A DNA stretch of 33,209 nt from Spirochaetota bacterium. Its GTDB lineage: Bacteria; Spirochaetota; UBA4802; UBA5550. Positions within the stretch are counted from its first letter, which is position 1, and each line of letters starts with the position of its first letter. The notes beneath the pieces are model-generated. The model had not been told where the DNA came from. It saw only the letters and a list, made by a program, of their open reading frames with translations, and searched no databases. Location: NCBI GenBank assembly GCA_003246895.1, contig QKCL01000045.1:1-33209 (forward strand). Reading direction: 5' to 3'. Shown here piece by piece: positions 9,084-14,000 of this stretch. The position numbers were made by a program, and so were the translations under genes.

Positions 9084-9250
9084 AATGCCCTCTGCACTTA
9101 ATAATAGAAGCCTGCTTTCAGCATGCAAGTAATTTTTTTATATATTAATTCACACAGTACCATTTTTTACAATTATGGACTATACCCTGTCAAAATGGCT
9201 TTACAACTTCCCCGGAAAGGGAATATTCTATATCCGCACAGGAGGATTCT

Positions 9251-10570
9251 TTGAAAAATCAGGACTGCGGTACTCTCATAAAAATTCTAGACAGCATAAT
9301 AGAGGGTGTTTTTACAGTGGACAGGGATTACCGCATAACATCCATGAACTCAGCGGCTGAAAAAATCCTGGGAATAAAGGAGAACGAGGCGCTGGGGAAA
9401 TACTGCAGGGACATTTTCAAGGCCGACATATGCAGCTTTTCCTGTGCCCTGAAGAAATCAATCGACACAGACAGTGCAATTTGCAACCGTACTGTGTACA
9501 TAGAAAACTCCCATGGGAAAAAAATCCCCATAAGCGTAAACACATCGGTAATCAAGGATACCCATGGCAACATTACAGGCGGTGTTGAATCATTCAGGGA
9601 CATAAGCGACATATACAGCCTTAGAAAAACAATAGAATCCGCCTATACATTTGAGGACATAGTAACAAAGAGCCGTTCCATGCAGGAAATTCTCTCCATT
9701 CTCCCTGACATTGCAAAAAGCGACAGCTCAGTAATAATTCAGGGGGAGAGCGGAACAGGCAAGGAACTCATTGCACATGCCCTCCACAATCTCAGCGACC
9801 GGTACTCGAAGAGGATTGTTCCCATAAACTGTGCGGCAATACCGGACAATCTCATTGAATCTGAACTCTTCGGATACAAAACAGGGGCCTTCACAGATGC
9901 CAGAAAGGACAAGGCCGGCAAAATTGCCGTTGCCGAAGGAGGAACGCTCTTCATTGATGAACTTGGTGAAATGTCCATGAACATACAGGTTAAACTGCTA
10001 CGGTTTCTCCAGGACAGGCGCTATGAACCTCTGGGAAGCCTCACACCTGTTGAGGCCGATGTCAGGGTCATTGCCGCAACAAACAGGGACCTGGAAGAGG
10101 ACATTAAAAACGGAAGGTTCAGGCAGGACCTCTACTACAGGCTCAACGTAATAAACATAAAGCTCCCCCCCTTAAGGGAGCGCCTTGAGGACATACCTCT
10201 CCTCGTTGACCACTTCATCTCCATGTACAACATAGTAAAGAACCGTCAGATTGAAGGGGTAACGGATGCTGTTATGCAGATTCTGCTGAACCACACCTTC
10301 CCCGGCAACATAAGGGAACTGGAGAACATCATAGAGCACGCATTCATACTCTGTAAAGGTGAATACATAAATGAAAGCCATCTCCCCCAGTATCTGGGCA
10401 GTATAAGCATCAGATATAAGCCTGAATCATCCCTGGAAGAGATGGAAAGGCTCCACATACTCAATATTCTCGAAAAAAGCGGCTGGAACAGAAAAAAAAC
10501 CGCGGAAATCCTTCAAATAAATAAATCCACACTATGGAGAAAGCTGAAAAAATACGGCCTTGACCAATAG
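9251..10570 (+). CDS. Sigma-54-dependent activator with Cys-rich PAS domain (OrpR-like)
   Basis: 439 residues from a TTG start with GGAGG five bases upstream. Domain order: PAS (about 8-120), AAA+ sigma-54 domain (about 135-375) and a Fis-type helix-turn-helix (about 408-436). The AAA+ part has Walker A GESGTGKE (165-172), GAFTDA at 212-217 in place of the usual GAFTGA sigma-54 contact loop, Walker B GGTLFIDELGEM and DLYYRLNV. The PAS domain holds Cys52, Cys61, Cys65 and Cys78 in a pattern (YCRDIF...CSFSCALKKS) suited to metal or redox sensing. It lies directly upstream of twin palindromes, a -24/-12 promoter and the NifX/ATPase operon. The Desulfovibrio ORP operons are likewise controlled by sigma-54 and an adjacent activator (DVU2106), so I expect this gene to switch on its neighbour. 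Confidence 0.9.
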   Translation: MKNQDCGTLIKILDSIIEGVFTVDRDYRITSMNSAAEKILGIKENEALGKYCRDIFKADICSFSCALKKSIDTDSAICNRTVYIENSHGKKIPISVNTSVIKDTHGNITGGVESFRDISDIYSLRKTIESAYTFEDIVTKSRSMQEILSILPDIAKSDSSVIIQGESGTGKELIAHALHNLSDRYSKRIVPINCAAIPDNLIESELFGYKTGAFTDARKDKAGKIAVAEGGTLFIDELGEMSMNIQVKLLRFLQDRRYEPLGSLTPVEADVRVIAATNRDLEEDIKNGRFRQDLYYRLNVINIKLPPLRERLEDIPLLVDHFISMYNIVKNRQIEGVTDAVMQILLNHTFPGNIRELENIIEHAFILCKGEYINESHLPQYLGSISIRYKPESSLEEMERLHILNILEKSGWNRKKTAEILQINKSTLWRKLKKYGLDQ

Positions 10571-10571
10571 T

Positions 10572-10619
10572 ATTGCATATTGCAATTACAACGGACAGCA
10601 AAACGTTGCAAAATACAAT
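10572..10619. promoter_or_regulatory. Twin palindromic activator sites for the sigma-54 regulator
   Basis: ATTGCA-TAT-TGCAAT (10572-10586) is a perfect palindrome. GTTGCA-AAA-TACAAT (10605-10619) is an imperfect second copy with the same 6-3-6 geometry. The centres are 33 bp apart, about three helical turns, so both face the same side of the DNA. They lie about 115-150 bp upstream of the -24/-12 promoter, the normal place for enhancer sites of sigma-54 activators. Confidence 0.7.
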
Positions 10620-10724
10620 CATTCCCCCATCAAAATGACTAATATACCGGACAAACTCCACTTTAAATAAACATAATCATGCTTTTGATCATAAAACATG
10701 CCGTAAAACCCTGAAATTCCACTT

Positions 10725-10739
10725 TGGCACGGTTCATGC
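10725..10739 (+). promoter_or_regulatory. Sigma-54 (-24/-12) promoter of the ORP-like operon
   Basis: TGGCAC (10725-10730), five bases, then ATGC (10736-10739) matches the sigma-54 consensus TGGCAC-N5-TTGC at nine of ten fixed positions. The expected start point is near 10751, about 24 bases before the first gene. It is downstream of a sigma-54 activator gene and its presumed sites, which strongly supports it. Confidence 0.82.
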
Positions 10740-10774
10740 GAAATAATATGCAAAACTTATACATGGGGGAACAT

Positions 10775-11143
10775 ATGAAAATTGCAGTAACAGCCACAGG
10801 CCATGATCTGGAATCATCAACAGACCCGAGATTCGGAAGAGCCCAGGGGTTCATAATATACGACTCTGAAACTGAAGAGTTCAGCTACGTTGACAACAAC
10901 CAGAACTATCAGTCAGTGCAGGGTGCCGGCATTCAGTCCGCAAAGCATGTCATAGATGCGGGAGCGGAAATACTCATTACAGGAAACATAGGACCAAAGG
11001 CCTACACTGCCCTGAATTCCGCAAATGTGACAATACTTCTATGCAGGGAATCGACAGTGAAAGACTCAATCGAGTCCTGGAAAAAAGGTGAGCTTGAAGA
11101 GACATCCCAGGCCAATGTTTCGGGCCACTGGGGAGGGATGTAG
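10775..11143 (+). CDS. NifX/NifB-type cofactor-binding protein (ORP-like)
   Basis: 122 residues from the ATG at 10775, next to GGGGGA; an earlier in-frame ATG lies at the sigma-54 promoter and is rejected. The protein is one dinitrogenase iron-molybdenum cofactor domain: KIAVTATGHDLESSTDPRFG and GFIIYDSET at the start, GAEILITGNIGPKAYTALN in the middle. This fold carries FeMo-cofactor precursors in NifX/NafY and a Mo-Cu-sulfide cluster in the Desulfovibrio orange protein ORP. It is the first gene of a sigma-54 operon and its stop codon abuts the ATG of the next gene. It has one cysteine (LCRES) and one histidine near each end, so bound metal cannot be predicted from residues alone. No nif structural genes are visible, so an ORP-like role is more likely than nitrogen fixation. 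Confidence 0.85.
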   Translation: MKIAVTATGHDLESSTDPRFGRAQGFIIYDSETEEFSYVDNNQNYQSVQGAGIQSAKHVIDAGAEILITGNIGPKAYTALNSANVTILLCRESTVKDSIESWKKGELEETSQANVSGHWGGM

Positions 11144-12010
11144 ATGCAGATAGCAATTGCCAGCGGCAAGGGCGGAACCGGAAAAACCACAATGTCTCTG
11201 GCCATATCACATTTTCTTTCATCACGGGGCAATGATGTGACACTCCTCGACTGCGACGTGGAAGAGCCCAATGCAGGCCTTTTCATGCATTCAGGGTCAC
11301 TTAAGGAAAGAAGAGTCACCACCCCTGTGCCTGAAATAGACCCGTCAAAATGCATAGGCTGCGGTGTATGCGAAGAGCTGTGCCAGTACAATGCCCTTGC
11401 GGTGCTGAAGGGAAAGGCGGTTATTTTCCCTGAACTGTGCCATTCATGCGGTGGGTGTGTCATAGCCTGCTCATCAGGTGCCATGAAGGAGAGGGATGTT
11501 GAGATAGGAACAATCTTTACAGGTTCAGACGGCTCCATCACCCATTTGACCGGAAAACTTGACATAGGCAAAATCCAGAGCCCCGGCCTCATAGGTGAAG
11601 TAAAAAAGGAAAAGAAAAACCACATTGGAAAAATAAACATAATAGACTCACCTCCCGGCAACTCCTGCCCCATGATTGAGACAGTAAGGGAATGCGACCA
11701 TGTATTTCTTGTGGCAGAGCCCAGCCCCTTCAGCATGAATGACCTGGAGCTGGCCATGGAGACACTGGATAAAATGGGCCTGAAATACAGCGTAATAGTG
11801 AACAAGGCAAAGGAAGGAGAGAATGAACTGACCGGTTTTCTGGAAAAGAGGAACACGGAAATAGCAGCAGTAATATCAGACTCCCTTGACCTTGCAGTGG
11901 CCTACTCTTCAGGAAACTTTATTGATTTACTCATTGAATCAGAAAAGGGGGAGTTCGAAAAAATAGAAGAAATAATAAACAGCCGCAGGAGGATAGTGGA
12001 ATGTCAATGA
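11144..12010 (+). CDS. MinD/ParA-superfamily ATPase with 2x[4Fe-4S] ferredoxin insert
   Basis: 288 residues. The N-terminal deviant Walker A is SGKGGTGKTT (7-16) and the switch region is INIIDSPPGNSCP. Inserted after the first strands is a bacterial ferredoxin module with Cys70, 73, 76, 80 and Cys99, 102, 105, 109, able to hold two [4Fe-4S] clusters. Proteins of this type are known as DVU2103/DVU2104 in the Desulfovibrio ORP complex and are common in anaerobes; they are thought to couple ATP hydrolysis to metal-cluster or electron transfer, not proven in detail. The gene starts on the base after the previous stop and overlaps the next start by 10 bases, so translation is coupled. Confidence 0.88.
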   Translation: MQIAIASGKGGTGKTTMSLAISHFLSSRGNDVTLLDCDVEEPNAGLFMHSGSLKERRVTTPVPEIDPSKCIGCGVCEELCQYNALAVLKGKAVIFPELCHSCGGCVIACSSGAMKERDVEIGTIFTGSDGSITHLTGKLDIGKIQSPGLIGEVKKEKKNHIGKINIIDSPPGNSCPMIETVRECDHVFLVAEPSPFSMNDLELAMETLDKMGLKYSVIVNKAKEGENELTGFLEKRNTEIAAVISDSLDLAVAYSSGNFIDLLIESEKGEFEKIEEIINSRRRIVECQ

Positions 12011-12876
12011 AGGAAATCGCCATTATAAGCGGCAAGGGCGGAACCGGAAAGACCAGTATTACCGCTGCCCTGGCAAGCTTCGAGGAAAAGTGTTCAATGA
12101 TTGACTGCGATGTTGATGCGGCAAACCTTGCCATCATTTCGGAGCATGAAGTGATCGAGGAAGAGAACTTCATGCAGGGGAAAAAATACACAATAAACAA
12201 AGACCTCTGCATTGAGTGCGGGAAATGTATCAGCCTGTGCCGGTTTGAAGCCATTTCAGATGACTATATAATTAATCCGGTATTCTGCGAGGGCTGCGGT
12301 GTATGTTCATTCTTCTGCATGGCAAGGGCTGTAAATAGCGAAGACAGGGATTCGGGAACAATATACACATCGAGAACTCCACGTGGGCCCTTCTTCCATG
12401 CAAGGCTTGGAATCGGTGAGGGCAACAGTGGAAAACTTGTGGCCCGACTCAGGGAAATGAACAGCATGAAACTCAGGAACAGGACAGATATCGGTGTCAC
12501 ATACCTTGACGGCCCTCCCGGAACAGGGTGCCCTGTAATTGCAACCATTTCAGGGGTAAAGGCAGTACTCATTGTTACTGAACCGAGCATCTCCGCCATA
12601 CACGATCTCGAAAGGATAAGCCAGCTCTGCAGGCATTTCAGAATTAAAATATTCCTCTGCATAAACAGGGCTGACATAAACACAGAACTGTCTGAAAAAA
12701 TCAGAAAGTTTTCAGCAGATAACGATATTGAACTCACCGGAGAAATCAGACATGACCCTCTGTTTCTCAAGGCCCAGAAAGAGGGCAAAAACCTTGTTGA
12801 ATTTGCATCAAATGATACAGCTGCGGAGCTGAAAAAAATTCACTCTGCGCTGTCAGATTTCATAACCAAAGGATAA
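12001..12876 (+). CDS. Second ferredoxin-containing MinD-type ATPase (paralogue)
   Basis: 291 residues with AGGAGG eight bases before the ATG at 12001; a second ATG at 12007 would give a four-base ATGA overlap. Walker A is SGKGGTGKTS (10-19). The ferredoxin insert has Cys70, 73, 76, 80 and Cys96, 99, 102, 106, and the switch region is VTYLDGPPGTGCP. The first cysteine set has the same residue numbers as in the preceding gene, and the overall layout is the same, so the pair arose by tandem duplication. They probably form a heterodimer, since MinD-type ATPases dimerise on ATP. Like its neighbour it resembles the DVU2103/DVU2104 pair of the ORP system. Confidence 0.88.
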   Translation: MSMKEIAIISGKGGTGKTSITAALASFEEKCSMIDCDVDAANLAIISEHEVIEEENFMQGKKYTINKDLCIECGKCISLCRFEAISDDYIINPVFCEGCGVCSFFCMARAVNSEDRDSGTIYTSRTPRGPFFHARLGIGEGNSGKLVARLREMNSMKLRNRTDIGVTYLDGPPGTGCPVIATISGVKAVLIVTEPSISAIHDLERISQLCRHFRIKIFLCINRADINTELSEKIRKFSADNDIELTGEIRHDPLFLKAQKEGKNLVEFASNDTAAELKKIHSALSDFITKG

Positions 12877-12881
12877 TTTAA

Positions 12882-13661
12882 ATGAGTGAAACAAGTCAAA
12901 ATAACAGTTTCGGGCAGGTATTCACTGTAATGTCCGGCAAGGGCGGAGTTGGGAAAAGCACTGTTGCGGCAAATATTGCTGCGGGTCTTGCATCAATGGG
13001 ATACAGAACAGGCCTCATGGATGTGGACCTTCACGGGCCAAGTATCCCTAAAATGCTCGGAATTGAAGGAGAATTTATTCACGGTCAGAACGGGAAAATT
13101 CTGCCCCTCCAGGTTAATGAAAACCTCAAGGCCCTGTCCATAGGACTCATGATGGAGAACAGGGACGAGGCCGTCATATGGAGAGGCCCTCTCATGCATA
13201 ACGCAATAAAGGAATTCATTCAGGAGGTAAACTGGGGGGAACTCGATTATTTCATCGTGGACTCGCCTCCAGGCACAGGAGATGTTCACCTTTCCCTGTC
13301 CCAGTTTCTGCCCAAAGAAAGTTCAGCCATAATGATCACCACTCCGCAGGATGTATCAGTTGCTGATGTAAAAAAATCCATCAGTTTCTGCAAGGCAGCG
13401 CATGTTCCGGTCACAGGCATAATCGAAAACATGAGCGGGTTCAAATGCCCTCACTGCTCGGAGATCATCGACATCTTTTCAAAGGGCGGAGGAGAATCAC
13501 TTTCGCGAACGCTGGACATCCCATTTCTGGGAAGAATCCCCATGGACAGAGCAATCTGTGAAATGGGAGACAATGGGAGCACCATGGCAGGGAGTGAAGA
13601 TCCCCATATAAAGCAAATAATTTCAGATATAATAACAAAACTGATCAGAAAGGAGAATTAA
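12882..13661 (+). CDS. Mrp/NBP35-family iron-sulfur cluster carrier ATPase
   Basis: 259 residues. MSGKGGVGKSTVAANIA (17-33) is the deviant Walker A of Mrp/ApbC, DVDLHGPSIPKMLG the family signature, FIVDSPPGTGD the switch, and FKCPHCSE supplies the CPHC (Cys189, Cys192) that holds a bridging [4Fe-4S] cluster at the dimer interface. Family members bind and hand on Fe-S clusters. It lies 5 bp after the paired ATPases, and the stop codon is followed at once by the ATG of a NifX-type gene. The Desulfovibrio ORP cluster also contains an Mrp (DVU2109) next to the NifX-type orp gene. It lacks the N-terminal DUF59 domain of longer Mrp proteins. Confidence 0.9.
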   Translation: MSETSQNNSFGQVFTVMSGKGGVGKSTVAANIAAGLASMGYRTGLMDVDLHGPSIPKMLGIEGEFIHGQNGKILPLQVNENLKALSIGLMMENRDEAVIWRGPLMHNAIKEFIQEVNWGELDYFIVDSPPGTGDVHLSLSQFLPKESSAIMITTPQDVSVADVKKSISFCKAAHVPVTGIIENMSGFKCPHCSEIIDIFSKGGGESLSRTLDIPFLGRIPMDRAICEMGDNGSTMAGSEDPHIKQIISDIITKLIRKEN

Positions 13662-14000
13662 ATGAAAATAGCAGTCCCATCAGCAGAAAACAGGCTCAGC
13701 ATGCACTTCGGCCACTGCAAGGAATTTGACATCTTTGAAGTGGACATGGACAGCAGGACAATACTCAAAAAAGAGTCACATACACCTCCCCCTCACGAAC
13801 CGGGAGTTCTGCCTGCATGGTTGTCGGAGATGAACGTCAACTTCATCATTGCAGGCGGAATGGGCCAGAGAGCCCTGCAGCTTTTTGAGGAAAAAAATAT
13901 CCATGTCATAGTGGGAGTACAGCCTGACCTCACCGAAAATGTGGTGAAAAACTATATGGAAGGCACCATTGAAAGCGGTGCAAATGTATGCGACCACTGA
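13662..14000 (+). CDS. Second NifX/NifB-type cofactor-binding protein
   Basis: 112 residues, a single dinitrogenase iron-molybdenum cofactor domain: MKIAVPSAENRLSMHFGHCK, then FDIFEVD, and FIIAGGMGQRALQLFEEKNI. The His-Phe-Gly-His-Cys segment (His15, His18, Cys19) differs from the first NifX-type protein of this operon, which has DPRFGRA there, so the two may bind different metals. Tail residues add VCDH. It is the last gene of the five-gene unit, starts directly after the Mrp stop codon, and is followed by a strong terminator. Confidence 0.85.
   Translation: MKIAVPSAENRLSMHFGHCKEFDIFEVDMDSRTILKKESHTPPPHEPGVLPAWLSEMNVNFIIAGGMGQRALQLFEEKNIHVIVGVQPDLTENVVKNYMEGTIESGANVCDH

Follow-up and report, generated by a model that had tools for sequence, protein, structure and literature searches.

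The stretch of Spirochaetota DNA analyzed here (33,209 nucleotides, hereafter the window) contains a short region, between the gene of a predicted sigma-54-dependent activator and an operon of predicted iron-sulfur proteins, in which two ATTGCA-N3-TGCAAT palindromes are followed by a -24/-12 element. This arrangement raises the question of whether the palindromes are the sites through which the neighboring activator switches on the downstream operon, or whether they serve another protein or none.

Palindromes, promoter element and operon

Re-reading of the sequence returned exactly the letters and coordinates that an earlier note on this DNA had reported for both palindromes and for the promoter element (Table 1), and bore out its 6-3-6 geometry, its 33-bp distance between the two sites and its nine-of-ten match to TGGCAC-N5-TTGC. 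Site 1 starts 2 bp past the stop codon of the activator gene, and site 2 deviates from ATTGCA-N3-TGCAAT at two of 12 positions, one of them in the 10-base core. The promoter element reads TGGCAC-N5-ATGC and retains GG-N10-GC, the GG and GC being the defining letters of a sigma-54 promoter. Transcription would be expected to start at ~10750-10752, which would put the box centers at approximately -172 and -139 relative to a start near 10750. Overlap with the promoter ruled out the TTG start of the open reading frame at 10724 in favor of the ATG at 10775, which is preceded by GGGGG.

Table 1. Features of the activator-operon region, in window coordinates (a dot marks features listed without a strand).
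Feature	Positions	Strand	Description and basis
Activator gene	9251..10570	+	PAS (~18-120), AAA+ sigma-54 activator domain with GAFTDA loop, Fis-type HTH; Pfam, translation
Codons of Cys52, Cys61 and Cys65	9404..9445	+	C-x8-C-x3-C in PAS domain; homologue alignment
Predicted upstream activator site 1	10572..10586	.	ATTGCATATTGCAAT; perfect palindrome, 0 mismatches; conserved in orthologues
Predicted upstream activator site 2	10605..10619	.	GTTGCAAAATACAAT; weaker copy; orthologue partner sites at 31-33 bp
Spacer between sites and promoter	10620..10724	.	34% G+C; proposed place of DNA loop
Predicted sigma-54 promoter, -24/-12 element	10725..10739	+	TGGCACGGTTCATGC; conserved at same place in orthologues; rpoN in genome
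Likely ribosome-binding site of first operon gene	10765..10769	+	GGGGG; from sequence
First operon gene, NifX/NifB-type	10775..11143	+	Nitro_FeMo-Co protein, 122 aa; Pfam
MinD/ParA-type ATPase	11144..12010	+	Ferredoxin (Fer4) insert; Pfam
Second MinD/ParA-type ATPase	12001..12876	+	Ferredoxin insert; Pfam
Mrp/NBP35 iron-sulfur carrier	12882..13661	+	N-terminal half of MrpORP; ParA/NUBPL 3.5e-94, MrpORP model 1.3e-102
ORP (Nitro_FeMo-Co) domain gene	13662..14000	+	C-terminal part of MrpORP; MrpORP model positions 265-364, 1.4e-36

Judged by its gene content, the operon at 10775-14000 is an orange-protein (orp) cluster, predicted to encode iron-sulfur cluster carrier proteins. When joined, its last two genes (12882-14000) surpass the cut-off of the MrpORP model, and a single stop codon (13659-13661) separates them; MrpORP is thus split in the window, whereas it is one open frame of 425 residues in a deltaproteobacterium described below (L124), as in Desulfovibrio. 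The other side of the activator gene is occupied by a STAS gene and a plsB-like gene. By analogy with characterized relatives, the product of the activator gene can be classed as a single-component enhancer-binding protein of the DVU2106/OrpR type, which very probably regulates the operon. The source genome encodes the sigma factor required (rpoN, Sigma54_DBD 5.1e-57).

Conservation and co-occurrence of the twin sites

We compared the region across 46 genomes of the order (Spirochaetia), source genome included, 43 of which encode sigma-54. Orthologues of the activator, mostly 58-62% identical, are present in 25 genomes, and 21 of these also have the NifX-type operon gene. The earlier note had made its proposal dependent on finding the palindromes next to orthologous operons, and 19 of the 21 do have a pair of TTGCA-N3-TGCAA boxes upstream of the operon, at a spacing of 31-33 bp (mostly 32). 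A -24/-12 element then follows in nearly all of the 19 (the candidate in G042 has three mismatches), so that the comparison with relatives that the note had called for recovers the 6-3-6 geometry, the spacing and the promoter elements, in other phyla too. The two exceptions are a genome with a single box and a -24/-12 element (G028) and one in which twins with a four-base center (6-4-6) precede a perfect -24/-12 element (G026). Twins are also present at a contig end in two genomes outside the 21 (G018 and G029).

The sites keep to the operon and to the activator. In four genomes where the operon does not follow the activator gene (G014, G016, G017 and G019), the twins precede the operon and are absent after the activator, and a fifth (G004) has one pair after the activator and another before the operon. 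Nine genomes have the operon gene without a full activator; one of them, with only 110 bases upstream (G044), is uninformative, and among the remaining eight the twins occur in a single genome (G025). Genomes devoid of the enhancer-binding protein keep rpoN while the twin sites are gone. Twin sites and activator thus co-occur across the order (Fisher P = 1.7e-4, or 2.3e-5 if the activator remnant of G025 is counted as an activator), with P-values that are approximate because the genomes share ancestry. The exact twin pattern has nine matches in the 46 genomes, each adjoining the activator or the operon, and its reversed control has none. G025 retains a broken activator fragment of 206 residues along with the boxes and a promoter-like element, the latter two now separated by 452 bp that include repeat-like sequence.

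A scan of public genomes with a relaxed twin pattern, which is not a global census and whose listed matches are mostly unrelated or due to chance, extended the arrangement beyond the phylum. Among the matches listed, Deltaproteobacteria bacterium B119_G9 (L124) combines the activator, two perfect boxes 32 bp apart, a -24/-12 element, the NifX-like gene, both ATPases and a fused MrpORP, and a member of the Planctomycetota (L047) combines the activator, boxes 33 bp apart, a -24/-12 element and the NifX-like gene. Within 30 homologous loci of the Desulfobacterota, the strict twin is rare, with one exact pair (L254), and TTGCA-rich palindromes often follow the activator gene in other arrangements. 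Since the strict twin is rare there and other TTGCA arrangements are present, the half-site is, on this comparative evidence, old and its arrangement variable.

Together, these results make it highly likely that the adjacent DVU2106/OrpR-type activator uses the twin palindromes as its upstream activating sites and that the sigma-54 promoter under their control is the element at 10725-10739. The points that speak against this reading are the weakness of site 2, with its two mismatches, the identity of the palindrome with the LuxO box (see below), the varied arrangements in the Desulfobacterota and a spacer lacking a strict IHF site.

Site code and alternative readings

The collected sites share the core TTGCAWWWTGCAA, which was partly selected for, with A and T flanks and 95% A/T in the central three positions. 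The same letters make up the LuxO box, whose consensus is given as TTGCA-N3-TGCAA or TTGCAWWWTGCAA (PMC3352281), and positions 10573-10585 match it exactly. As in the window, the LuxO boxes of the Vibrio qrr genes have an A/T center and lie before sigma-54 promoters (PMC3352281, PMC10162802), and the Fis-type HTH that recognizes them ends in (S)TL/IxRK. LuxO differs in being a two-component receiver protein that acts on small RNA genes; the activator of the window has a PAS domain and no receiver domain detectable with Pfam, and its putative target is an iron-sulfur operon. Twin copies also adjoin unrelated Fis-type activators, among the matches listed, in Bacteroidota, Aliivibrio and others, and these activators have a similar recognition helix, mostly (S/T)TL(W/Y)RK or near it. 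Because the half-site code is that of the LuxO box and adjoins other activators, the letters alone cannot name the activator; as far as they can be read, they define a class of activators and no single protein. The proposal in the earlier note that the palindromes are a specific site for the adjacent activator is supported by every comparative test applied here; its pairing of the two follows from co-occurrence and position and is backed by conservation, and it is weaker in the specificity it ascribed to the letters.

A site code of this breadth, together with the four further enhancer-binding proteins encoded in the genome, leaves room for the twin sites to be real and yet bound by one of those other proteins. 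We consider this improbable: across the order the sites track the presence of the activator and adjoin its gene or its operon, and they have disappeared from genomes that lack the enhancer-binding protein despite the presence of rpoN. It is still harder to see the palindromes as an end-of-gene feature of the activator, such as a terminator-like hairpin or a repeat, unrelated to the promoter. The proximity of site 1 to the stop codon, repeated in many orthologues, would fit such a feature, but the stems are not G+C-rich, no T run follows, the spacing of 31-33 bp is maintained, and the twins stay with the operon in the four genomes where the activator is elsewhere, all of which makes this reading very unlikely.

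Chance was assessed with 20,000 dinucleotide-preserving shuffles of the 204-bp stretch at 10571-10774. A perfect palindrome arose in seven shuffles, and a pair of palindromes with up to two mismatches each, 28-36 bp apart, arose in none. The separate parts prove little, because loose counts of either motif are at chance level: the -24/-12 element alone has 31 matches with up to two mismatches in the window versus 27 expected, and the number of three-mismatch palindromes in the window is likewise unremarkable. The case for a real feature rests on the combination of the parts and on their conservation. Accidental palindromes and a promoter look-alike in an A+T-rich intergenic stretch would account for each part singly, but hardly at all for a pair that no shuffle reproduced and that recurs in 19 of 21 genomes and two other phyla. 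The genomes in which activator and operon are separated contradict the end-of-gene reading, and the conservation of the sites refutes the chance reading.

At the scale of the 3.57-Mb genome, the perfect ATTGCA-N3-TGCAAT occurs once, as site 1. The earlier note had expected the motif to lead to the remainder of the activator's regulon, an expectation that the genome did not bear out: the scan yielded 12 further copies with one mismatch, every one within a long open frame, and the strict motif marked no target other than the operon at 10775-14000. None of the 12 has a second site of up to three mismatches beside it anywhere in the genome, and the one copy with a weak -24/-12-like match (two mismatches, 56 bp away) lies within an open frame of 612 codons. 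Judged by the strict motif, the regulon seems to hold little or nothing beyond the operon at 10775-14000. A single target operon at this stringency is in line with DVU2106, for which two adjacent operons are listed as targets (PMC4641369).

The Desulfovibrio system, mechanism and signal

Regulation of the orp genes by DVU2106 in Desulfovibrio vulgaris Hildenborough was reportedly described by Fievet in 2011, and the D. vulgaris promoters are said to need IHF in E. coli assays. In contrast to this IHF dependence, the spacer of the window (10620-10724) contains no strict IHF consensus (WATCARNNNNTTR) and only two matches with one mismatch. In D. vulgaris, transcription of the two divergent orp operons depends on sigma-54 polymerase and on DVU2106, which binds palindromes at -131 and -88 (PMC3897727), and DVU2106 is a single-component activator with a GAFTDA loop (PMC4641369). 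The window resembles this system in having a single-component GAFTDA enhancer-binding protein beside orp genes, palindromic sites upstream of a predicted sigma-54 promoter (a likeness drawn from the described layout) and NifX-like, MinD/ferredoxin and MrpORP target genes. As in the MrpORP of Desulfovibrio, an Mrp/NBP35 ATPase and a Di-Nase (ORP) domain are present in the same cluster (PMC6345978), but here as two adjacent genes. The layout also differs, in that the two divergent operons of D. vulgaris flank the activator gene, whereas the window has one co-directional operon with the activator directly upstream; we treated the divergent layout as a feature of the type case and not of the mechanism. 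DVU2106 reportedly exerts negative control on its own promoter through an overlapping site, for which the window has no clear counterpart; a TTGCA-N3-TGCAA core with one mismatch at 9116-9128, ~120 bp before the activator start, is at chance level, yet lies where an autoregulatory site would be expected.

If the twin palindromes are bound by the adjacent activator, the membership of this protein in its family suggests how binding, looping and activation would proceed. Activator dimers would bind both boxes on the same face of the helix, approximately three turns apart, and nucleate an AAA+ hexamer. Looping of the 34% G+C spacer, over ~130 bp of A+T-rich DNA in all, would bring the hexamer to the sigma-54 polymerase ~140-170 bp downstream, where ATP hydrolysis would open the promoter of the orp operon. 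The neighboring regulator would thus very probably turn on the orp iron-sulfur operon through a switch kept across distantly related anaerobes.

The predicted transcript appears to differ among relatives. In approximately 17 of them, 11-14 nt (exactly 13 in most) separate the GC of the -12 element from the downstream first ATG of the operon, and a sigma-54 start would therefore yield a leaderless mRNA. A leaderless start is thus probable in most relatives. The first operon gene of the window differs from that of the leaderless relatives and has a GGGGG leader.

The signal to which the activator responds may be the iron-sulfur or redox state, read by its PAS domain. Cys52 and Cys65 are present in all 59 aligned homologues, which span several phyla, and Cys61 in 58 of them, and from this conservation we infer that the C-x8-C-x3-C motif is a candidate Fe-S or redox sensing site. 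Such sensing is plausible because the three cysteines are kept in 58 of 59 homologues of a regulator of iron-sulfur carrier genes. Comparison of the PAS domain with solved structures returned no close match, only weak ones to a sensor kinase. As a tentative model, possible but somewhat doubtful as a whole, the PAS cysteines would hold a cluster or form a switch, making the activator an Fe-S/redox sensor in a feedback loop for iron-sulfur supply that is read out through the twin TTGCA-N3-TGCAA sites and, in most relatives, through a conserved leaderless sigma-54 transcript.

Only anaerobes have the orp cluster, and what is known of its control comes from one species. The comparison made here defines a putative recognition site of two TTGCAWWWTGCAA boxes ~32 bp apart, extends this arrangement beyond Desulfovibrio-type bacteria into the Spirochaetia and the Planctomycetota, and points, with the strict motif, to only one operon in the source genome. 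If the PAS cysteines are indeed a sensor site, iron-sulfur state would be linked to the synthesis of iron-sulfur carriers.

A different regulator gene accompanies the NifX-type genes in some genomes. In a genome without the enhancer-binding protein (G010, locus L207), the NifX-type gene is immediately preceded by a DUF134 helix-turn-helix gene, and in another (G051, locus L031) a DUF134 gene is found near NifX-type genes beside a distant homologue of the activator. On gene order, it looks as if the DUF134 regulator and the activator could replace each other in some lineages.
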